NCBI RefSeq assembly: GCF_001939115.1
Contig: NZ_MQTZ01000002.1
Coordinates: forward strand, 192,904-256,903
Origin: Leptolyngbya sp. 'hensonii'
GTDB lineage: Bacteria > Cyanobacteriota > Cyanobacteriia > GCF-001939115
Direction of reading: 5' to 3'
DNA: 64,000 bases
Both the position numbers and the translations under genes were made by a program. The notes under the pieces are model-generated. The model was not told the DNA's origin. It did no database searches and saw nothing but the letters and a program-made list of their open reading frames with translations. Shown piece after piece: positions 13,697 through 51,552 of the stretch; the first letter of the stretch is position 1; each line of letters starts with the position of its first letter.

Positions 13697-14778
13697 TTTT
13701 GAATCCCTCTCCTATCGATTGCTGTAGTAAACGGGCTCACCTACTGTGGTGTGCAACAGGCTTGTATTCCTGGTAAGGATTGTGGATTAAATAACCTCGA
13801 TTTCTTCAGCCCTCACCCCCAACCCCTGACCCGCTCCCAAATTTGGGCCTATCCATCACGCAAAAGTCTCTCGAACTCATGCCTTGTCAAGCTTTTAGCA
13901 TCCGGTTGCATCTGAACCAATCACAACTTTTGGGACTATTTCGCACCCAATAAGGGAGCGGAATTACGATTTCTTCGCTCTTCAGTCACAAATGGGCTGA
14001 AACTGGCACAACCGATTTCTAGACCCTAGTGCTACCAAGTACTGCAGAGAGATCTGCGTAATGGATAGCAAATTTGGGAAAGGGGGCAAGGAGGTGAGGG
14101 CAATCAGGAGTTTGATACTTTATTTAATTCTCATTCCTGACCTGGAAAATTACCTATTTCTACGGAGAAAACTGAAGGACACAGGATCTGTGTGATATCT
14201 TTACCAAATCTTCACTGTTCCAACAGGTTCTCCAGGCGTTGCATAAAAATGGGGTTTCGCTCTGCTCCAGCCAACCTACGGAAAAAGTTTTGTCAGTCAA
14301 TCAGGGTATGGACTTTTCCCCCTTGGAAGCAGGGACTATTCATTCCGGGAAGGCAAAGAGCTTGGTCCAGGGATCTCGATCGAGGCTCAAGTCCCGTATG
14401 TTCGATCGCTGTCCCAGCCGCAGATCAGCCCAGAGGGTTGTTCCCCTTTAGGGAGGGCCGGGGTGAGTCCGCCTGGGCACGAGGGAGGGCAACGGCTGCT
14501 GGAAAATGAATTATCAAAATTTCATTTCCTCTAGCTTTTACTGCTGTTGCCCTGGAAGCAAAAAATGGGAATCTTACCCTTATAGGAATGAGCCTGATTG
14601 ACGGGTGAATTGCTGTGGGGACAGGTTTATGAGTTCTATTCGGTTTCTGGGTAACCTCCCAGTAGGTTAGGGCTTATCCCTACCAACGATTGATCCTGTG
14701 AGGGTTATGCGATTCAGTGGCATCAAGTTGTGCCATTAATTTAGAGACAGTATGCGTGCCTGCTAATCTTTAACTCTT
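13697..14778. other. About 1.1 kb without a supported gene
   Basis: No open frame here looks protein-like. Near 13808 there is a short CCCTCACCCCCAACCCCTGA stretch typical of decayed dispersed repeats. Overlapping short frames at 14192-14509 have Arg/Pro-rich, unlikely translations. The last 120 bp probably hold the promoter of the histidine kinase. Otherwise I see nothing. Confidence 0.4.
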
Positions 14779-25384: not shown

Positions 25385-26620
25385 ATGATGGTTTTACAGC
25401 AGGCTCTGATGGCGATCGTACTCTCCGCTGTCCAGGCAGGTCATTCCTTCGCTCCCAGGGCAACGAATCCGCCGATCGCGGCAACTCGATCCGGACTCAA
25501 GCCAAATCGAATTTCCCTGAGCAAGGGTAGGAGTTTTAACCTTTACCTCCCGTCAGAATTGCGCATCACTGTTGCTGCTCAGGGGCTGAAGCGAGTTCGG
25601 TTTATGGCTCCCAGTCCCGATGGTCGGATTTTTGTCACCGATATGCATGACAAAACCGACAACCAGAAGGGCAAAATCTATATTCTGCAAGACTTTGATA
25701 CTAAGCAGAACCGCTTCCGTCAGGTCATTCCCTATCTCACAGGGTTACGCAATCCGAACAGCATCACCTTTCATACCGATCGAGCAGGTCTGCAATGGCT
25801 TTACGTGGCCCTGACCGATCGACTGGTGCGCTACCCCTACCGCAATGGGGATAACGCTCCCTCCGGTAGTTTGCAAGTCGTGGCCCAGTTTCCAGCCTAT
25901 GGCCTGAGCTACAAGTATGGCGGTTGGCACCTGACCCGCACCGTGCTGATTGCCAATGAGAAAGTGTATGTTTCAGTGGGCAGCAGTTGTAATGCCTGTG
26001 AGGAAAAGGAAGCAGTTCGAGCGACAGTGTTAGAAATGGATCTGGATGGCAAAAATCAGCAAATTTTTGCTAGCGGCTTGCGCAATGCGGTGGGCCTCAA
26101 GTGGGTGGAAGGGCAGTTGTTTGCCACCAACATGGGCTCCGATCATCTGGGGGACGATCGGCCAGAGGAAACTTTTTATGCCCTCAAACCCCAGCAAAAC
26201 TATGGCTGGCCCTACTGTTATCAATACCAATCTCGCCTCTACGCCGATCCCCAATTTCAATCCTCTTCCAAGCGGGTGAATTGCGGCACCGTTCCCCTGG
26301 CTACCACGACCTTCCCTGCCCACAGTGCGCCCCTGGGCCTGGAATATTTTGAGTCTACTTCCCCGATCACGAGCCTAAAAGATTCTTTCCTGGTGGCCCT
26401 GCATGGCTCCGGCAAAATTAGTCTGGGCCGGGGTTATCGGGTCATTCGGGTCCGTCCAGGCACCTCCCCCCAGGACTTCATCACCGGCTTCCTACAGCAG
26501 GGCAGAGTCTATGGCAGACCTGTGGATATTCTCAAATTTGGGCCAGCGGCGTTTCTGCTGACAGATGACGATGGGGGCGTGATCTATTACATTTGGAAAC
26601 CTGCTGCCGCACCCAATTAA
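25385..26620 (+). CDS. Sorbosone/soluble glucose dehydrogenase-like beta-propeller protein
   Basis: A 411-residue exported protein. Residues 1-19 look like a signal peptide ([12 protein letters not shown]). The rest is a six-bladed propeller of the PQQ-dependent sugar/sorbosone dehydrogenase family: [28 protein letters not shown], the central [31 protein letters not shown] and [11 protein letters not shown] synthesis is not confirmed in most cyanobacteria, so the cofactor is uncertain. The AAGGAG site 7 bp upstream selects ATG 25385 over GTG 25382. Its last 89 bp overlap the 3' end of the convergent ghaB. Confidence 0.8.
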
Positions 26621-27260
26621 ACCAGGCATCCAGCCCCTCTCCCGTCCGAGCCGAAACAGGGATAATTGTTGCCTGGGAATTCATCTGGCGAATATTAGCC
26701 TCAATCCGTTGCAAATCAGCCTCCAGATAGGGAGCCAGATCCATCTTCGTGATCAGCAGACAATTCGCCTCCCGAAACATGATCGGGTACTTCAGAGGCT
26801 TGTCTTCCCCTTCCGTAAGGCTGAGCAGGGCCACTTTGGCATGTTCTCCCACCTCAAATTCCGCCGGACAAACCAGGTTGCCCACATTCTCCACAAACAC
26901 CACCTCCAATTCAGCCGGATTATGCTCCTGCTCCAGGCGATGCAGACCACCGGCCACCATTTTGGCATCCAGATGGCACGATCGACCGGTGTTGATAGCG
27001 ATCACCGGCACCCCATACTGGCGCAGGCGATCGGCATCCAGTTCCGTCGTCATATCCCCCTCGATCACTGCCAGTTTTAGTTCAGAGCTGAGGGTCGCCA
27101 GGGTCTTTTCCAGTAGCACCGTCTTCCCAGCACCAGGACTGCTCATGAGATTGAAACAGGTGATACCCCAGGCATCAAAATGAGCCCGGTTATGGTCAGC
27201 CCCGGCCTGATTGGCATGGAGCAAATTGATTTCCAAAGCAGCGTCAAAGGTTTGGTGCAT
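26532..27260 (-). CDS. ghaB: HypB-like Ni-insertion GTPase GhaB for guanidine hydrolase
   Basis: A 242-residue SIMIBI-class GTPase of the HypB family. It has the P-loop [13 protein letters not shown], the Ni/Zn Cys-His pair in [22 protein letters not shown] and the base-recognition motif ITKMDL. Unlike hydrogenase HypB it has no His-rich or CxxCGC N-terminus. In Synechocystis the homologous pair next to the guanidine hydrolase (GhaA/GhaB) is needed to load nickel into it; no hydrogenase gene is seen here, so that role is inferred. The frame opens at 27413, but the family N-terminus [14 protein letters not shown] fixes ATG 27260. Its 3' end overlaps the convergent dehydrogenase gene by 89 bp. 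Confidence 0.88.
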
Positions 27261-27369
27261 AGAGGATTTAGGGTTAGAAGAAGCGTTGCAGGCAATACCT
27301 GTACGGGGAGTGATTGTCTTGGGAGGAGTGGCCCTGCGGGCCGTGATGGGACAGGCGTTGCCTGGGTCT

Positions 27370-27741
27370 CTACCAGGACATTTTGCACGCGGTATCCGCA
27401 TAATCAATGCCATCGATTTTCAATTCCCGGCCCGATCGAATCTCCTCCATCGGCGATCGACAAGTCGGGCACGTATACTGGGTGCCAATCTGAGGCTCAT
27501 ACTCCTGTTGGCAAGCGTGGCAGAAAGCAATCAGGGGCGTCTCCCGAATCACCAGTTCTGCTCCGGCCAAAAAGGTATTGCGAGTCTGCACCTCGAAGGC
27601 AAATTGCAGACTCACCGGCTCCACACAGGTAAACTGACCCACCACCAGATGCACTCTGGCAATGGACGGACGATCGGGCTGGGCTTCCCACCAGTCCCGG
27701 ATCGTCACAATCAAGGCCCGAGTCATATCCGTTTCATGCAT
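27370..27741 (-). CDS. ghaA: HypA-like nickel chaperone GhaA for guanidine hydrolase
   Basis: A 123-residue metallochaperone. It starts MHETDM, the MHE motif whose backbone and His2 bind nickel, and has a zinc ribbon with two Cys pairs, [10 protein letters not shown] and YTCPTCRSP. The start lies 2 bp after the gdmH stop, so the two are one transcript; MHE begins at 27741 rather than the upstream alternative at 27753. Together with GhaB it should deliver Ni to GdmH. A 109-bp gap containing a CAGGC-type dispersed repeat separates it from ghaB. Confidence 0.9.
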
Positions 27742-27743
27742 AC

Positions 27744-28937
27744 TCAGGTCCAATCCACCAGTTCTGGTTGGGCTTCGGGATGAATATAGGCAGGCTTGGC
27801 CTTGCGGGGCAGTTGGCCGGAGAGAACCAGGTGAGCCAGGGCATCACAGATGACGCGGGTGGCCATCAGGGAGGTGATGTCACTGATGTCGTAGGGGGGC
27901 GACACTTCCACCACCTCCAGCCCACAGACGGGAGCCCGCCGGATGATCTTACCCAGCAGGGCCAGGGCCTCCCGGGGCAGCAAGCCCCCCGGTTCTGGCC
28001 AGCCTGTGCCGGGGACAAACCCAGCATCAATACAGTCAATATCAAAGCTGATGTAAACACAGTCCGTTCCATCCATTGCCCGCTCCAGGGCAAACTCTAC
28101 GGCGGCATCAATGCCCATTTCCGTAATGTCCGTAACCGTGAGGATATTGGTGGCCCGTTCCCGGCAGACCTTCACCCCCTGACGGGGCACTTGCCAGCCC
28201 CCGATCCCCAACTGCACCAGGTTTTTAGCCGGAGCATTCTTCATATTGGTGGCATGGAACCAGGGACAGGTGTGCATCCGCTCATCCAGGTCCGTTTCCT
28301 GGGTATCCACATGGCGATCGAAGTGAATAATCCCCACTTTCTTGTCTCCCAGGTGGCGGCAGACGCCTCGCACTGTGGGAAAGCCGATCGAGTGGTCGCC
28401 CCCCAGAATGATCGGAAATGCTCCCGAACTGAAGATATGGGCCACCCCTCTGGAAATCTGGTCAAAGGACTTCTCGTTATTAGCCGGAATGGTAAAAATA
28501 TCCCCCACATCACAGAGGGTAATCTGTTCCCGCAGGTCAACCCCCAACTCAAAGTTGTAGGGGGTATAGAGGGCTGAGATGCGGCGGATACCCTGTGGTC
28601 CAAAGCGAGTTCCTGGACGGTAGGTTGTACCGGAGTCGTGGGGCACCCCCACCACCGCCACATCATATTCACCCACCCGGCGCACATCCTCCAGATAGGG
28701 GGCTTTCAGAAAGGTATTAATCCCGGCATAGTGAGGCAGTTCCCCTCTGGAGAAGGTGGGAATGGAGCGATCGCGAATACTCTCTGCTGCCTCCAACCCA
28801 TACTCCAATCCTCGGGACACTTCCTGTTGCCAGCCCGTCAGGGGGAGGCGGCTTTCCAATTCCAGGGCTCGGCTGGCTTCCGTGGAGGGAGTTTCACCTC
28901 CAGCATTGGGGTTCTGAAAGAGAGGGGCATCTGTCAT
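27744..28937 (-). CDS. gdmH: Nickel-dependent guanidine hydrolase GdmH (arginase/ureohydrolase family)
   Basis: A 397-residue ureohydrolase that should split guanidine to urea and ammonia in the cytosol. Metal ligands of the fold are visible: His182 of GGDHS, Asp207, His209 and Asp211 of FDRHVD, and Asp299/Asp301 of FDIDCID. The long N-terminal extension (about 80 residues), FDRHVDTQ in place of the usual FDAHxD, and GTGWPEPGG are features of the Synechocystis Sll1077 type, long labelled agmatinase and later shown to be a Ni guanidine hydrolase. The HypA/HypB-like genes behind it and the guanidine-I riboswitch in front support this over agmatinase. GGAG 8 bp upstream supports ATG 28937. Confidence 0.9.
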   Translation of the reverse strand: MTDAPLFQNPNAGGETPSTEASRALELESRLPLTGWQQEVSRGLEYGLEAAESIRDRSIPTFSRGELPHYAGINTFLKAPYLEDVRRVGEYDVAVVGVPHDSGTTYRPGTRFGPQGIRRISALYTPYNFELGVDLREQITLCDVGDIFTIPANNEKSFDQISRGVAHIFSSGAFPIILGGDHSIGFPTVRGVCRHLGDKKVGIIHFDRHVDTQETDLDERMHTCPWFHATNMKNAPAKNLVQLGIGGWQVPRQGVKVCRERATNILTVTDITEMGIDAAVEFALERAMDGTDCVYISFDIDCIDAGFVPGTGWPEPGGLLPREALALLGKIIRRAPVCGLEVVEVSPPYDISDITSLMATRVICDALAHLVLSGQLPRKAKPAYIHPEAQPELVDWT

Positions 28938-28971: not shown

Positions 28972-29029
28972 AAAAGCCCAGGAAAGCAGCAACTCATTCG
29001 ACACGGTTGCCTGTCTCTCCCGGGCTTTT
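28972..29029 (-). terminator. Riboswitch-controlled intrinsic terminator in front of gdmH
   Basis: On the minus strand the last conserved aptamer segment AAAAGCCCGGGAGAG (29029-29015) can pair with TTTCCTGGGCTTTT (28985-28972), followed by a U-rich stretch. Ligand binding would keep the first arm in the aptamer and allow read-through into gdmH. Confidence 0.75.
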
Positions 29030-29234
29030 ATCCCGCCGTGTAACTGCCATCTCCTTTTACAGGAAGACCTTAGGATCACGAATTAAATAAGATGAACAAT
29101 TGGGGTGCAGGGGTGTTGCCCCTGCTTGGGGGCTTCGCCCCCAAACCCCTACTTTATTTAGTTTTCGATCCTTAGCAGCTTACCTCTCTCGGACCAGACA
29201 CTTAAGCTGGGGTTTAAGTCGGAACCCTAGAGGT
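29015..29234 (-). ncRNA. Guanidine-I (ykkC) riboswitch in front of gdmH, interrupted by a MITE
   Basis: The minus strand carries CTCTAGGGTTCCG (5' end, 29232-29220), CTGGTCCGAGAG (29196-29185) and ACACGGCGGGATAAAAGCCC before GGGAGAG (ending 29015). These are the conserved blocks of the guanidine-I aptamer. The span is 220 nt against 119 nt for the plus-strand copy; the extra DNA is an inserted repeat at 29072-29172 in the variable arm. GTAAGCTGC on one side and GCAGTTAC on the other still pair beneath the insertion. It should turn on gdmH-ghaA-ghaB when guanidine is present. Confidence 0.85.
29072..29172. mobile_element. MITE-like repeat inside the gdmH riboswitch
   Basis: Ends are inverted: AGGATCACGAATTAAATAAG on the left and, reverse-complemented, AGGATCGAAAACTAAATAAA on the right. 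The interior has two GC-rich hairpins (GTGCAGGGG...CCCCTGC and TTGGGGGC-TTC-GCCCCCAA). About 101 bp, no coding capacity; flanking CTTA may be a target duplication. Confidence 0.75.
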
Positions 29235-29490
29235 ATGTTTAATGTTTGGCTTTGAGCAATCGTAGCAGGGAACGCTACTTTATATCCTTGCTCAGGTATC
29301 CTGGACTTCTCGACACATTCTAAATCAAGGTGCTGAAAATTGATGCCTTGGATTCCCTAAATTCAGCCCCTATGGCAATAAATTGACATTTCGTTATTTT
29401 CGATACAAAAATAGCCCAATTAAGCAGCTATACCATTGTCTATTGCTAAAAAGGTTCTGAAAAGTTTAAGAATTTCTCAATTTCATAAGA

Positions 29491-29609
29491 TCTCTAGGGT
29501 TCCGACCTGTAACTGAAATGGGTGGCTGGTCCGAGAGGGGTCGGTTTATCAGATTTTCCGGTATGGAAAAGCTAGATAGATTACACGGCGGGATAAAAGC
29601 CCGGGAGAG
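29491..29609 (+). ncRNA. Guanidine-I (ykkC) riboswitch in front of the ABC-transporter operon
   Basis: The plus strand carries TCTCTAGGGTTCCG (29491-29504), CTGGTCCGAGAG (29526-29537) and ACACGGCGGGATAAAAGCCC then GGGAGAG (29583-29609). The middle arm is a compact hairpin (TTTTCC...GGAAAA). It is intact and of normal size. It lies about 180 bp before the ATPase gene and is followed by its own terminator, so the transporter operon should be guanidine-induced. Confidence 0.92.
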
Positions 29610-29790: not shown

Positions 29791-30648
29791 ATGTTAATTA
29801 CCCATTCCAGGCATCAAAAGATGCATCAGCAAACTGCAAGCCGTACCCCTTTCAGTGAATCACCCCTGACCTCAGCCGCAAAACTATCTGTGCAGGGGGT
29901 CTATAAAACCTATGCCACAAGGGGGAAACAGAAACTAACTGTTTTGCAGGATATCAATTTTGAGATCTTCCCCCGGGAGTTTGTCTGTCTCGTGGGCTCC
30001 TCCGGCTGCGGCAAGTCTACCCTGCTGAACATCATTGCCGGACTGATTCCTCCTTCCGAAGGCCGGGTGACGGTGGATGGGCAATGCGTCACGGGGCGTC
30101 CTGGCTCCGATCGGGGCATGGTATTCCAGGGCTATACCCTCTATCCCTGGCTCACTGTAGCCCAGAACGTGGCCTTTGGCCTGCAGTTCCAGGGGATGCC
30201 CAAAGCGGAGCAGCGGGAGCGGGTACGCTATTTCCTGGATGTGGTAGGTCTGGGGCAGTTTGCCCACAGCTATCCCAAGCAATTGTCTGGCGGGATGAAA
30301 CAGCGGGTGGCGATCGCTCGGGCTTTGGCCAATGAACCGGCTGTTCTACTGATGGATGAACCGTTTGGAGCCTTGGATGCCCAGACCAAAGAACAGATGC
30401 AGCAATTCTTGCTGGAATTGTGGGAGCGGACCCATGTCACCGTGCTGATGATTACCCACGATGTGGAAGAAGCCATCTACTTGTCTCAACGGGTTTATGT
30501 CATGGGCTCCCGTCCAGGCTATATCCAATCTGAGATTACGATTCCCCTACCGGAACACCGCGATCTAGATATCAAACTCTCTTCCGAGTTTGTTGCTGTT
30601 AAACGGCAAATTATTCATGCATTGCGTGATGATGCATTAACTGCATAG
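29791..30648 (+). CDS. ABC importer ATP-binding subunit (NrtD/SsuB-like), guanidine-regulated
   Basis: A 285-residue ATPase of the nitrate/sulfonate/taurine importer group. It has Walker A VGSSGCGKST, Q-loop GMVFQGYTLYPWLTV, signature LSGGMKQRVAIARAL, Walker B VLLMDEPFGALD and switch His in ITHDVEEAI. The first 30 residues are an unconserved tail. AGGAGC 11 bp upstream fits ATG 29791. It is the first gene after the plus-strand guanidine-I riboswitch; its partners are the lipoprotein at 30691 and the permease at 35013. Guanidine or a simple derivative is the predicted cargo, inferred from the riboswitch and not from the ATPase itself. Confidence 0.88.
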   Translation: MLITHSRHQKMHQQTASRTPFSESPLTSAAKLSVQGVYKTYATRGKQKLTVLQDINFEIFPREFVCLVGSSGCGKSTLLNIIAGLIPPSEGRVTVDGQCVTGRPGSDRGMVFQGYTLYPWLTVAQNVAFGLQFQGMPKAEQRERVRYFLDVVGLGQFAHSYPKQLSGGMKQRVAIARALANEPAVLLMDEPFGALDAQTKEQMQQFLLELWERTHVTVLMITHDVEEAIYLSQRVYVMGSRPGYIQSEITIPLPEHRDLDIKLSSEFVAVKRQIIHALRDDALTA

Positions 30649-31704: not shown

Positions 31705-31809
31705 CTCCCTTGTTCCTGCCCTGACGCCCACGGACTAAATCCCATCCCAGGCAGACCCTCCCATCCCTGCTTGGGATGGGAGAGGACGTAACGGTTCTTG
31801 GAGAAAATC

Positions 31810-32586
31810 GTGTCTACCCAAATTGTTTGTGAGAGCTGGTTTTCCACCCGCCTGGTGCAGGAGGGTCTGTATCTGATCACCGAGCCTCACTATTACTGGT
31901 ATAACAGGGCCAATCTCTGGCTGATCAAGGGGCAAACCCAGGATCTCTTGATTGATACTGGCCTGGGCGTTTCCAGTCTGCGGCATTATATTGCTGCTCT
32001 GATCGATAAACCTCTGTTGGCGATCGCCTCCCACATTCACTTTGATCATTCTGGCGGCATGCACGAATTTGAGCAGCGGGCCATCCACGCTGCCGAAGCC
32101 GAGGCCCTGCGACAGGGGAATGATTACGAAGCCCTCTGCACCCCGGAACAGGGATGGGTCCAGCCTGAACACTTTGAACAGCTCCCCTATGCAGGCTTTA
32201 CGGTTGAGACTTACACCCTCCAGGCGACTGAACCCACCCAGATTTTGCAGGCAGGGGACGTACTGGACTTGGGCGATCGAGCCCTGGAAGTCCTACATTT
32301 GCCGGGGCATTCTCCCGGTTGTATTGGCCTTTACGATGCCCGATCGCAGGAACTGTTCTCCGGCGATGTCATCTACGATGGCGAGCTGCTCGACGAACTC
32401 CACTGCAGCCACATCCCAACCTACATCACCAGCTATGAGCGGCTACAAAAGCTGCCGATTGAAACCGTCTATCCTGGGCACTATCCCATCTTTGGTCGGG
32501 AGCGCTATCACCAGATCTTGCAGGAATACCTGGACCGACGACGCCTGCCCGGATGTCCCTCCGATTACCTAAAAAAGATGGAATGA
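31810..32586 (+). CDS. MBL-fold metallohydrolase in the guanidine-regulated operon
   Basis: A 258-residue metallo-beta-lactamase-fold enzyme with the two-metal motif HIHFDHSGG, the later ligands in LPGHSPGCIGLYD and FSGDVIYDG, and a terminal YPGHYP. Such enzymes hydrolyse lactones, amides, thioesters or phosphoesters; the substrate is not predictable. GGAGA 6 bp upstream makes GTG 31810 a better start than TTG 31798. It stands inside the importer operon between the binding protein and the permease, so it probably acts on the imported compound or its breakdown product. Confidence 0.8.
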   Translation: MSTQIVCESWFSTRLVQEGLYLITEPHYYWYNRANLWLIKGQTQDLLIDTGLGVSSLRHYIAALIDKPLLAIASHIHFDHSGGMHEFEQRAIHAAEAEALRQGNDYEALCTPEQGWVQPEHFEQLPYAGFTVETYTLQATEPTQILQAGDVLDLGDRALEVLHLPGHSPGCIGLYDARSQELFSGDVIYDGELLDELHCSHIPTYITSYERLQKLPIETVYPGHYPIFGRERYHQILQEYLDRRRLPGCPSDYLKKME

Positions 32587-32640
32587 TTATGGCACCGCTT
32601 TTTGACACAGGCATTACATCTAACATCTGCCCTATCCAAA

Positions 32641-32729
32641 CCCACCCCGGCCCTGCGGGCCACCCCTCCCCAGAGGGGACTACCCCCCCTACAGGCGTTG
32701 CTGGAGGCGTTGCCTGCAGCAACGCCTCC
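32641..32729. repeat. Dispersed repeats before the creatininase-like gene
   Basis: Copy 2 of the CCCACCCCGGC-CTGCGGGCC unit (32641-32686), followed by the palindrome GGAGGCGTTGC-CTGCA-GCAACGCCTCC trimmed to its arms at 32704-32729. They occupy the gap between two genes of one operon. Confidence 0.5.
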
Positions 32730-32749
32730 AGGCAAGCATCGGCACGACT

Positions 32750-33514
32750 ATGACACAGCCTGATCCCCGACCCGTCCTCTGGGAAGAACTCACCTGGGAA
32801 CAGATTACCCATCTGCGCGAACAGGGCATGACCATGGCTATCCTGCCAGTAGGGGCAACGGAGCAGCATGGACTGCACTTACCCGTCGGCGTAGACACCT
32901 TCTCGGCGATCGCGGTTGCCCATGGTGTCTCTGCCCGCACCGGCATCCCCGTCCTGCCCGCCCTCCCCTACGGCTGTTCCCTCGGCCATTCCAAAAAATG
33001 GGCCGGGACCATTTCCCTGCGTCCTGAAACCCTGGCCAAGCTGGTACTGGAGATTGCTGAATGGGTCGCCAGTGCCGGGTTCGATCGGCTCCTGCTCCTG
33101 AACGGCCACGTCACCAACTGGGCTCCCCTACGCTGTGGGCTAGAAAACGTGCGACACACCTATCCCGACCTGCGGATTGCCCTGCGATCGATCTGGGAGA
33201 TTGCCCCCAAAATTCACCAGTTTTACCATCGGGATGCCGCCAACTTCCATGCCAACTGTGCCGAAACCTCCGTTATGCTGGCCCTCCGGCCCGATCTGGT
33301 GCAAATGGAGAAAGCGATGGATGAACCCGATCGATCGGCCAGTTGTTTCTTTGCCTACACCGTCAACCAGGAGAGTGTCCACGGAGCCGTGGGAGCCCCC
33401 AGCAAAGCCGACCTCAACTTTGGTCAGCAAATCCTCGACACCTGCATCACTGAACTGAGCGCTCAGCTCCACCGCGCTCTGGCCGAAGGCACCCCCCTGG
33501 AAGAAAACCCTTGA
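32750..33514 (+). CDS. Creatininase-family amidohydrolase in the guanidine-regulated operon
   Basis: A 254-residue member of the creatininase family, metal-dependent cyclic-amide or formamide hydrolases. Metal ligands are visible as Glu38 and His40 (ATEQHGLHLP), Asp49 (VGVD) and His120 (LLNGHVTN), with a later Glu in NCAETSVML. The segment NGHVTN differs from the NGHYEN of creatininase itself, so creatinine is not assured as substrate; family members also act on formamides and guanidino-ring compounds. ATG 32750 is preceded by a repeat-filled gap. Being in a riboswitch-controlled importer operon, it probably deals with a guanidine-derived or N-substituted compound. Confidence 0.82.
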   Translation: MTQPDPRPVLWEELTWEQITHLREQGMTMAILPVGATEQHGLHLPVGVDTFSAIAVAHGVSARTGIPVLPALPYGCSLGHSKKWAGTISLRPETLAKLVLEIAEWVASAGFDRLLLLNGHVTNWAPLRCGLENVRHTYPDLRIALRSIWEIAPKIHQFYHRDAANFHANCAETSVMLALRPDLVQMEKAMDEPDRSASCFFAYTVNQESVHGAVGAPSKADLNFGQQILDTCITELSAQLHRALAEGTPLEENP

Positions 33515-33540
33515 ATTGAATCCAAAAGTAAGGACACCCC

Positions 33541-34902
33541 ATGGCAGCAACCCTGACCCCCGAACTTCAGGCCCTCAAATCCTCCCTGGAATCCAAAGGC
33601 GTGAAATATGCCCTGGCCAGTTTTGTCGATATCCACGGCATGTGCAAGGCAAAATCCGTGCCCCTCTCCCACCTGGGCCAGATGATGGCCGGGTCCGAAC
33701 TATTCACCGGCGCTGCTCTGGACGGTGTTCCCCAGGATGTAAGTGACGAGGAAGTTGCCACCCATCCCGATCCAGATTCGGCCACAATTCTGCCCTGGAA
33801 TCCCGAACTGGTCTGGTTTGCCAGCGACCTCTACCTGAAAGGAACCCCCTTCGAAGCCTGCTGTCGAGGCATCCTGAAGCGGGCTTTAGCCGATGCCGCT
33901 GCCATGGGCTTTACCTTCAACCTGGGCATCGAAACCGAGTTCTTCATTCTGCGGGAAACAGAAGATGGCAAAGCGGTTCCCATCAGCGATCGGGACACCC
34001 TGGCCAAACCCTGCTACGACCTCCAGGGCCTGCTGGACAATTACACCTGGGTCACCGAAATCGTAGAGGCCATGAACAGCCTGGGCTGGGATGTTTATTC
34101 CTTCGACCATGAAGACGGCAATGGCCAGTTCGAGACTGACTTCGCCTATTGTGATGCCCTTAAGATGGCCGATCGCTTCACCTTTTTCCGCCTGATGGTG
34201 AAAGAAATTGCCCGCAAGCACGGCTTTTTTGCCACCTTTATGCCCAAACCCTTTGCCAACCGCACGGGGAGTGGAGCCCACTACAACATGTCCCTGGCCG
34301 ATCTCAAAACCGGCGAGAACCTGTTCTACGACCCAGAGGATAGCCGGGGCTGCAAACTCTCCAAACTGGGCTATCAGTTCATTGCCGGGGTTCTCCGTCA
34401 CGCCCCCGCCATCTGCGCCACGATCGCCCCCACCGTCAACAGCTACAAACGTCTGATCGCCAGAGGCAGCATGTCCGGCTTTACCTGGGCTCCCATCTAT
34501 GTTTGCTATGGCAACAACAACCGCACCAACATGCTTCGCATTCCCCTGGCTGGGGGGCGCGTCGAATGTCGGGCTGCTGATATTTCCTGTAATCCCTATC
34601 TGGGTGCGGCGATGATCCTGGCCGCTGGATTAGAAGGCATCCGGGAAGAATTGGACCCCGGAGATCCTCACACCGAAAACATGTACACCTATTCCCTGGA
34701 AGAACTCTCCGAGATGGGCATCCGGTTTTTACCCCGCCATCTGGGGGAAGCGATCGCCGCTTTTGCCAGGGACCCTCTGAGTGAAAAGGTGATGGGGCCG
34801 CTGATGTACAGGGCCTATACAGAGTTCAAAGCCCAGGAATGGGAGGAGTATCACACCCACGTCTCAGACTGGGAAATTCAACGGTATTTGAAGTTCTTTT
34901 AG
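33541..34902 (+). CDS. Type III glutamine synthetase-like ligase (GlnT/GmaS family), guanidine-operon copy
   Basis: A 453-residue GS-fold enzyme of the GlnT/GmaS type. The N-terminal beta-grasp contains LASFVDIHGMCKAK; the catalytic domain has GIETEFF (metal Glu pair), [44 protein letters not shown] and GRVECRAADISCNPYL. These enzymes join an amine to the gamma-carboxyl of glutamate using ATP; known members take ammonia, methylamine, ethanolamine or amines like these. It is about the same length as the GmaS-like protein at 40678-42006 and shares its motifs but differs clearly in sequence, so it may use another amine. It lies 26 bp after the creatininase-like gene. Confidence 0.85.
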   Translation: MAATLTPELQALKSSLESKGVKYALASFVDIHGMCKAKSVPLSHLGQMMAGSELFTGAALDGVPQDVSDEEVATHPDPDSATILPWNPELVWFASDLYLKGTPFEACCRGILKRALADAAAMGFTFNLGIETEFFILRETEDGKAVPISDRDTLAKPCYDLQGLLDNYTWVTEIVEAMNSLGWDVYSFDHEDGNGQFETDFAYCDALKMADRFTFFRLMVKEIARKHGFFATFMPKPFANRTGSGAHYNMSLADLKTGENLFYDPEDSRGCKLSKLGYQFIAGVLRHAPAICATIAPTVNSYKRLIARGSMSGFTWAPIYVCYGNNNRTNMLRIPLAGGRVECRAADISCNPYLGAAMILAAGLEGIREELDPGDPHTENMYTYSLEELSEMGIRFLPRHLGEAIAAFARDPLSEKVMGPLMYRAYTEFKAQEWEEYHTHVSDWEIQRYLKFF

Positions 34903-34937
34903 CGAATGTCGCGCTGACTCCCCCACATTGCCCGATC

Positions 34938-34979
34938 GACCCACCCCAGCCCGTAGGGCCACCTCTCCAGAGGAGGGGA
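34938..34979. repeat. Dispersed CCCACCCCGGC-CTGCGGGCC repeat, copy 3
   Basis: GACCCACCCCAGCCCGTAGG and the following CCTCTCCAGAGGAGGGG match the copies at 6997 and 32641. It lies between the ligase and the permease gene of the same operon. Confidence 0.5.
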
Positions 34980-35012
34980 TTTGGCTGATACTCTTATTTG
35001 GAGGTACTCCCC

Positions 35013-35867
35013 ATGGTCCAATCCAGTCTGCCCTCTCCTGAACCGGCCAGCCGCGAATATCGCTACCTGGCTCCCTCCGTTTTCTGGAGTATTCGCCAGG
35101 GATTTCCCAGATGGTTAGCTCTCAGCCTTGTGGGCCTATCACTGATAGCCCCATTGCTCCTCTGGACTGTGATCAGCTATCTTCGCCTCGTTCCCGCCAT
35201 CTTTTTACCCACACCGGGAGAGGTGCTGGATGCCGGGTTCAAGCTGTTCTTTGACAACAACCTGATCGTTGATGTGTTGATGAGCAGTAGCCGGGTTCTG
35301 GCCGGATTTATGGTTGCCGGGATCATCGGGGTGCCTATGGGATTAGCCATGGGAACGTTTTACAGTTTTGATAGCCTATTTGCCCCGATCGTCGGCATGG
35401 TCCGTTACATGCCTGTGACCGGATTCGTGCCTTTGATTGTCATCTGGTTCGGGCTAGGGGAAGTCTCAAAAGTCTTGATCATTATGCTGGGTGTAGTGTT
35501 GTACAACGCCATCATGGTAGCCGATGCAGTCAAATTCATCCCCAACGAGATGATCAACGTCGCTTACACGATGGGGGCAACCCGCCGCGATGTGGTGTTC
35601 AAAGTGATTATTCCCGCCACCTTTCCCAGCGTTCTGGATACCCTACGGGTGAACATTTCTGGAGCTTGGAACTTCCTCGTGATTGCCGAACTCGTAGCCG
35701 CCCAAAATGGTTTGGGATTCAAAATTATTCAGGCCCAGCGATTTTTGCAAACCGATAAAGTACTGTTTTGTATTGCCCTGATCGGAGTCATTGGCGTATT
35801 GATTGATTATGGATTAAAGTGGACCGCTCAGAAATTGACCCCCTGGGCTGATCAGATTCGGCATTGA
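35013..35867 (+). CDS. ABC importer permease (SsuC/NrtB-like), guanidine-regulated operon
   Basis: A 284-residue BPD-type permease with about six transmembrane helices and the ATPase-docking EAA-like loop near NVAYTMGATRRDVVFKVIIP. GGAGG 8 bp upstream fixes ATG 35013 rather than TTG 34998. It completes the importer begun by the ATPase at 29791 and the lipoprotein at 30691, although three enzyme genes stand between; normal importers of this group keep the three genes together. A long inverted repeat follows its stop. Confidence 0.88.
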   Translation: MVQSSLPSPEPASREYRYLAPSVFWSIRQGFPRWLALSLVGLSLIAPLLLWTVISYLRLVPAIFLPTPGEVLDAGFKLFFDNNLIVDVLMSSSRVLAGFMVAGIIGVPMGLAMGTFYSFDSLFAPIVGMVRYMPVTGFVPLIVIWFGLGEVSKVLIIMLGVVLYNAIMVADAVKFIPNEMINVAYTMGATRRDVVFKVIIPATFPSVLDTLRVNISGAWNFLVIAELVAAQNGLGFKIIQAQRFLQTDKVLFCIALIGVIGVLIDYGLKWTAQKLTPWADQIRH

Positions 35868-35873
35868 TGTTTG

Positions 35874-35933
35874 CCTGTAGAGGTGCTGCATGCAAGGTCT
35901 TTACGGGATTGGTGTATGCAACACCGCTACAGG
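35874..35933. repeat. Long inverted repeat between convergent genes
   Basis: CCTGTAGAGGTGCTGCAT and ATGCAACACCGCTACAGG pair at 16 of 18 positions around a 24-nt loop. It spans the gap between the permease stop and the stop of the isochorismatase-family gene and may end transcription from both sides. Confidence 0.5.
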
Positions 35934-36619
35934 TGGGGCACCAGGGTGTCAGAGGTGGTGACCCACCCGATCGCGCCGTTCTCCCCCAGCAGGACTTCGA
36001 TCGCAGCCTCATGCTCCTTCCGGCTCAAGGCTGCACAACAATCTTCCAGGAGCAGGCAGAAAAAGCCAAGATCGCTGGCATGGCGATAACTTCCCAGGAC
36101 ACAACACTCTGTGGTTACGCCAGTAAAGAGCAAATGGGTAATCCCTTTTTGGTGCAATACAGATTCCAAATTAGTTGCAATAAAAATGGATTGTGCGGGT
36201 TTATCCAGTTGCAATTCAGTTGCTAAAGGTTGTAACTCTGCAATTAATTTTGTGCCTGCTTCTCCCTGGATTAAAAACCGACCCATTTTGCCTGGACTCC
36301 CGATCGGATAGCCCGCATTGATGTACCGTTGTTTTTTACTGGGAGTCACATCCGATAGGTCAGGCAGATGGCTTTCTCGGGTGTAGATAACGGGCATACC
36401 CTGCTCTCTGGCCCAGGCGATCGTGCGCTGGATGTTAGGAACGATCGCCGCAACTGCCGACAAATCAGCCCCCAATTCATGCCCACAAAAGCCCTCCGGA
36501 TGGCAAAAGTCATTCTGCATATCGATCACAACCAGAGCCGTTCGATCGGGGTCAAGCGGGAAAGGATGCTGACGGGTAGGCACCCAAATCGGCGTAAAAT
36601 TCTGGTTCTCTAAATTCAT
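35927..36619 (-). CDS. Isochorismatase-family cysteine hydrolase (biuret hydrolase/RutB-like)
   Basis: A 230-residue cysteine hydrolase. The catalytic triad is intact: Asp in ALVVIDMQNDF (near residue 34), Lys in LDKPAQSIFIATNL and Cys in TGVTTECCV. The LESVLHQKGITHLLFTG phrase is typical of amide hydrolases such as biuret hydrolase, ureidoacrylate amidohydrolase and nicotinamidase-like enzymes. Placed between a guanidine-regulated operon and a methylamine-type operon, a small N-containing amide is a sensible substrate, but this is inferred. Single gene, convergent with the permease gene and divergent from the next. Confidence 0.85.
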   Translation of the reverse strand: MNLENQNFTPIWVPTRQHPFPLDPDRTALVVIDMQNDFCHPEGFCGHELGADLSAVAAIVPNIQRTIAWAREQGMPVIYTRESHLPDLSDVTPSKKQRYINAGYPIGSPGKMGRFLIQGEAGTKLIAELQPLATELQLDKPAQSIFIATNLESVLHQKGITHLLFTGVTTECCVLGSYRHASDLGFFCLLLEDCCAALSRKEHEAAIEVLLGENGAIGWVTTSDTLVPHL

Positions 36620-50943: not shown

Positions 50944-51169
50944 AGAATAGTTAGTTAGTTAGTACTGATTGGTTAGTAGTCTGATTAGTTCAATTGGGAT
51001 TTTCTTGGGTGATGTTAGTCGTAGCACTGGCATCACCTCAGTTTTGATGGGCCTGAAATAGACAAATCAAAATTAAGGTGACGGACTGTTTGTCACTCTG
51101 GCCTATGTACGCCAGCAGGAGCTTTACCCACCAGTGGAGGCTGTTCTCCTTGAACCCTTCAATCTTTCC
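50915..51169 (-). ncRNA. Candidate structured non-coding RNA
   Basis: A minus-strand extended -10 (TGCTATAGT, box at 51176-51181) predicts a start near 51169. The transcript would contain hairpins TTGAA/TTCAA (51150-51162), GGAG/CTCC (51136-51149), CTGGC/GCCAG (51098-51115), GTGAC/GTCAC (51078-51096) and GGTGATG/CATCACC (51008-51037), and end at the intrinsic terminator 50914-50943. No known RNA family fits (not tmRNA, SRP, 6S or RNase P by their conserved words). It occupies an otherwise gene-free gap. Confidence 0.5.
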
Positions 51170-51175
51170 TCCTAA

Positions 51176-51181
51176 ACTATA
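51176..51181 (-). promoter_or_regulatory. Extended -10 promoter element of the candidate RNA
   Basis: TGC-TATAGT on the minus strand. The expected -35 position falls on the second 12-bp repeat unit (51199-51207). Confidence 0.4.
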
Positions 51182-51186
51182 GCATG

Positions 51187-51445
51187 TCCTGAGGAATGTC
51201 CTGAGGAATTTCCAAAGTATTTTCCTGAGGATAGTCCTCAGGAATTTAAACCTCCACAGTTCTGAGGAATGACCTGAAGAATATCCTTCAGAGAGTCAGC
51301 CGATCGACGGAACCACCTCAGGAATGAGAATTAAATCCACGACCCTAAGGCGTTTCTCCAGTATTTTCCTGAGGACAGTTCTCAGGAATTCCAAGACCTT
51401 TCGTCCTGAGGACAGTCCTTAGGATAGTCCTCAGGACTGTCCGAG
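51187..51445. repeat. Array of thirteen 12-bp TCCTGAGGA-type units
   Basis: Units start at 51187, 51199, 51223, 51235, 51260, 51272, 51284, 51315, 51367, 51379, 51404, 51416 and 51428. Within clusters the period is exactly 12 bp; two cluster gaps are 25 bp (two periods plus one). Units come as TCCTGAGGA and its complement-like TCCTCAGGA, so pairs form 21-bp inverted repeats (51223-51243). It is not CRISPR: units are too short and spacers are 3 bp. Confidence 0.85.
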
Positions 51446-51552
51446 CTGATCCGACAAGCTTGAGGCCAGAGCCTATTCTCCCTGGAAACCGCTGTATATT
51501 CTGGCTGCAAGGCACTAGAATTTATGAGATTATCGCGATTTTTCCATGATCT

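Follow-up and report, generated by a model that had tools for sequence, protein, structure and literature searches.

The leader of gdmH carries a guanidine-I riboswitch in which a 99-bp element lies within the P2 arm of the aptamer, and we regard a MITE insertion as near certain. It is quite probable that this insertion has been tolerated and that guanidine still activates gdmH through the switch. The riboswitch and the MITE are components already known, and we consider the locus a natural test of insertion tolerance and not a new kind of system.

Two Rfam matches over the gathering score were found by cmscan in the window (the whole stretch of DNA that we analysed, 64 kb in length), and both are guanidine-I aptamers in divergent orientation. 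The interrupted aptamer (RF00442, minus strand 29015-29241) scored 77.2 bits (E 5.7e-13, gathering score 63), which lies within the 69.9–86.3 bits of 29 aptamers from class relatives, and it was complete over model positions 1–107 with 122 nt unmodelled within the second helix, P2. This bears out the original prediction that the conserved blocks of the aptamer are present but split; the spans of 220 and 119 nt given with it are replaced by Rfam spans of 227 nt for the interrupted copy and 127 nt for the sister. The model helices of the interrupted copy have no non-standard pairs, the core letters, P1, P2 and P3 are intact, and the P3/ACACGGCGGGAUAAAAGCCCGGGAGAG region falls within a stretch of 29 nt that is identical in the sister aptamer. 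The P2 helix is supported across relatives, where pairing is seen in 72% of cells over 91 distinct arms, compared with 25–46% when slid. The stem which had been proposed beneath the insert stands for P2 itself (AGCUGC(UA)/(UG)GCAGUU), but the GUA of its GTAAGCTGC is assigned by the model to P1. All sequence features open to testing classify the interrupted RNA as a guanidine-I riboswitch. It should be noted that a whole-genome search gave the same aptamer 44.9 bits (contig C2:222026-222144), under the cut-off, compared with the score on the window, which suggests that interrupted riboswitches are easily missed and may be under-annotated.

Table 1. Features of the interrupted leader, its downstream genes and the divergent sister locus (window coordinates).
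Feature	Coordinates	Strand	Evidence or remark
MITE-like element, 99 bp	29073..29171	.	Further copies in genome and fold
TTA target duplication, left copy	29070..29072	.	Identical TNA flanks in 32/43 family copies
TTA target duplication, right copy	29172..29174	.	Rebuilt empty site CTTAG
Terminal inverted repeat GGATCACGAATTAAATAA	29073..29090	+	
Terminal inverted repeat GGATCGAAAACTAAATAA (minus-strand reading)	29154..29171	-	
Guanidine-I aptamer RF00442, interrupted, gdmH leader	29015..29241	-	cmscan
P1 5' strand UACCUC	29230..29235	-	Rfam alignment
P1 3' strand GAGGUA	29181..29186	-	Rfam alignment
P2 5' strand AGCUGCUA	29173..29180	-	Rfam alignment; final two letters from TAA target copy
P2 3' strand UGGCAGUU	29042..29049	-	Rfam alignment
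Remnant of old P2 apical hairpin GGTCTTCCTGTAAAAGGAGA	29050..29069	-	Fold with and without element
P3 and conserved ACACGGCGGGAUAAAAGCCCGGGAGAG	29015..29041	-	Rfam alignment
Expression platform: terminator hairpin AAAAGCCCGGGAGAG...CUUUCCUGGGCUUUU sharing P3 3' side	28972..29029	-	Sequence and MFE fold of extended leader
gdmH, guanidine hydrolase, arginase family, 397 aa, intact	27744..28937	-	
hypA nickel chaperone	27370..27753	-	TIGR00100 over cut-off
hypB nickel chaperone	26532..27413	-	TIGR00073 over cut-off
Intact sister guanidine-I riboswitch, ABC transporter operon leader	29483..29609	+	cmscan, 81.3 bits
ABC transporter ATP-binding protein, taurine/nitrate-type family	29791..30648	+	

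The element begins directly inside P2 in the Rfam alignment (AGCUGCUA/UGGCAGUU), where two letters of the target copy help to close the stem, and, as had been predicted, it sits in the variable arm and leaves the conserved parts intact. Its position, its flanking duplication, its family and the intact core and platform around it can all be observed directly. The terminal inverted repeats are imperfect, there is no transposase gene in the 99 bp, and there are two differences from a rough family consensus, one at an unsettled position. The boundaries first given for the element (29072-29172) were one base too wide on each side. The element accounts for the greater part of the 122 unmodelled nt. 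Excising the element together with one TTA (102 nt) leaves a 125-nt aptamer. The multi-copy family, inverted ends and 3-bp target duplications identify the insert as a MITE, the reading that had been proposed from the start, with a parent element and a genuine empty site as the only exceptions among the tests.

The family was recovered by BLAST in the host's own genome (5.94 Mb; the window lies on contig C2), with eight further copies of 90–96% identity across the full length or most of it, together with some 20 shorter or more distant ones. The ends GGATCACGAATTAAATAA and GGATCGAAAACTAAATAA recur at many places in the genome, and a looser end pattern gave 129 matches (65+64) compared with two (1+1) for the reversed control. 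By length, copies with ends of this kind group at approximately 71–80, 98–105, 129–137 and 300–390 bp. The triplets flanking two-ended copies, mostly TNA, are identical in 32 of 43 cases where random pairing would give 15.5, and at other offsets match in only 0–1 of the 43; rebuilt targets are most commonly CTAAG/CTTAG, with CTTAG at the aptamer. The 3-bp TNA duplication is reminiscent of the IS5 family, which we treat as a lead only. No transposase with the family ends was found in searches of the genome with PF01609 and PF13359 (the ends were absent near the eight DDE_Tnp_1 matches, and DDE_Tnp_4 had no matches). Elsewhere, 40 loci carrying further copies or ends had no Rfam RNA under an element, with two tRNA genes in the flanks and away from the element, and in these other copies we saw no sign that the family targets RNA genes.

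The interrupted P2 arm is 145 nt long compared with 8–83 nt (median 45) in 100 other cyanobacterial aptamers, and it is 43 nt long when the element and one TTA are subtracted. An excess of this size goes well beyond what chance would give. The element ends were absent from all 100 of these other arms. In strict-pattern scanning of the class (390 genomes), only the host's own genome had an arm of 113–173 nt, a rough count as the pattern recovers 59 of the 100 known arms and some long arms could be missed. A scan of 390 genomes for arms of 86–146 nt, which passed over the host's own 145-nt arm because of a letter demanded between gaps, returned only genome G260, with an arm of 98 nt lacking the element ends. 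Relatives having the same long arm without element-like ends, a check proposed with the original prediction, were looked for both in the arms and by pattern scans and were not found. The comparison genomes belong to the same class as the host and to other orders, and it is from the P2 arms of such distant relatives that the insert is absent. We rejected recurrent insertion in other cyanobacteria, as the 390 genomes gave only G260 and the host's own genome. We note that the G260 aptamer (L185:1511-1610) has reached its length by tandem repetition of a unit of about 17 nt, which is a different route to a long arm.

The RNA fold, guanidine binding and regulation of the interrupted leader are matters of prediction. 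Forcing the aptamer core was calculated to cost 7.2 kcal/mol with the element, 6.9 kcal/mol without it and 11.1 kcal/mol for the intact sister. When the element was moved through the aptamer, the cost was 6.5–8.8 kcal/mol at P2-loop positions 70–86 and also low at the flanks; one base deeper into the stem it was 10.8 kcal/mol, and at many helix positions 11–18 kcal/mol. Alone on the RNA strand, the element is predicted to fold as a self-contained hairpin (-43.8 kcal/mol, z -5.45). The unconstrained minimum-energy fold lacks the aptamer core for the interrupted form and the intact sister alike, and the folding test is therefore a relative one only. A shuffled insert performs equally well in 45 of 200 cases, which means that the palindrome itself is not demonstrated as the source of the harmlessness, and the proposal that tolerance requires a palindrome is unsupported for the same reason. 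On its RNA strand the element contains no terminator-like site, and we accordingly rejected it as a new terminator. The intact core and terminator, the open downstream genes and the lack of a predicted folding cost indirectly support a switch that is likely to be still working.

Downstream of the aptamer the terminator is intact, with an equivalent layout in relatives, and the reading frames of gdmH, hypA and hypB are all open. GdmH is up to 92% identical to cyanobacterial homologues, and agmatinase-family models score below their cut-offs on it. The plus-strand riboswitch leads an ABC transporter cluster which includes a creatininase-like protein and a type III glutamine synthetase, and the transporter is likely to be a guanidine importer. 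Window positions 31798-36619 hold an MBL-fold hydrolase, the creatininase-like protein and the type III glutamine synthetase, with a biuret-hydrolase-like protein on the opposite strand; the region behind this riboswitch is a wide nitrogen-salvage cluster.

The explanation we favour is that a non-autonomous 99-bp MITE with a TNA target inserted at CTTAG, just inside the base of P2, in the leader aptamer of gdmH–hypA–hypB. The RNA of the element would fold on itself as a long hairpin on P2, next to the remnant of the old P2 loop; P1, the conserved letters of the ligand site and the P3/terminator switch are untouched. As the element is upstream of P3, the layout implies that the stretch from aptamer to terminator has not been lengthened, and the P3-to-terminator distance, where the on/off decision would be made, should be unchanged. 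With the core and platform untouched and this distance unchanged, guanidine most likely still switches gdmH on, and the insert, in all likelihood without a function, would be a tolerated, neutral passenger.

A damaged switch, with folding delayed or misdirected by the hairpin and gdmH either locked off at the terminator or under weakened control, is unlikely, even though the closeness of the element to the family consensus means that the insertion may be too recent for the decay of a broken switch to show. The unconstrained fold of the interrupted RNA does pair core parts differently, but so does that of the intact sister lack the core, and against damage we can also set the element's failure to raise the cost of forcing the core, the unchanged P3-to-terminator distance and the open downstream genes. 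That P2 arms vary widely in length, and that G260 has a long arm built from a tandem repeat, might suggest a natural long arm or a local expansion of a palindrome with no transposable element involved; we give this next to no credence, and it is refuted by the family copies, since the 99-bp sequence recurs at numerous unrelated loci of this genome, where it has the same ends and 3-bp duplications.

It is also conceivable that the element now serves the leader, for example as an RNase site, a protein-binding hairpin or a kinetic pause which tunes the switch, and its high stability as a separate hairpin within a co-transcribed leader would suit such a role. We consider this highly improbable, however, since none of the other family copies examined lies in an Rfam RNA, no relative has kept the insert, and the element has no sequence feature which distinguishes it from other copies. 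A further reading, in which the mobile element now functions as a component of the riboswitch by supplying a new P2 domain that tunes folding speed, RNA stability or response, is likewise very unlikely; if true, it would mean that a transposable element had extended an aptamer. We saw no sign of domestication.

The interrupted leader resembles other guanidine-I riboswitches (RF00442) in its conserved core, P1, P2, P3 and a terminator sharing P3, and its gene layout is close to that of cyanobacterial guanidine use, where gdmH, hypAB and ABC transporter genes accompany guanidine-I riboswitches in Synechocystis (PMC12186494). It differs from them in having a P2 arm which contains a mobile element and is longer than any of the others compared. 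As in the bacterial MITEs reviewed elsewhere (PMC10969869), the element is short and non-coding, with inverted ends, a short target duplication, many copies and a stable hairpin transcript; in contrast, its core is a GC-rich double palindrome and no parent insertion sequence was found in the PF01609/PF13359 searches. The same review cites Nezha of cyanobacteria and merely speculates on riboswitch effects (PMC10969869). The nearest published case we found is the pneumococcal trp operon, where a BOX element lies between two T-box riboswitches which by RNA-seq still repress (PMC3049150). There too the repeat is co-transcribed with riboswitches, but it is placed between two whole riboswitches whereas here it is inside one helix of one aptamer. 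We found no case of a mobile element within an aptamer helix in the searchable literature, outside which most subscription journals fall. What the locus offers is a natural insertion experiment in which the guanidine-I P2 arm accommodates 102 additional nt with no predicted damage to the core; the intact sister, divergent and about 240 bp from the interrupted copy, is a built-in control for it.

Other members of the family and its parts were seen within and beyond the window. A longer member of 361 bp lies at window positions 13777-14137, with ends AGGATTGTGGATTAAATAA/AGGAATGAGAATTAAATAA and flanks TAA and TGA, and a cluster of CCTNAGGA-type palindromic octamers at 51150-51450 includes a single element end (51320-51338, AGGAATGAGAATTAAATCC). 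The central GC-rich double palindrome of the element has matches of 79–97% in other cyanobacteria which lack the element's ends (L140-L145), and from its sequence the element looks like a widespread palindromic repeat that a transposon shell has acquired. One of the two inner palindromes is missing from the 79–80 bp copies (L020-L025), having been lost in differing ways, and the orientation of the GAAG/CTTC loop is flipped between family copies, which together suggest recombination within the palindromes.
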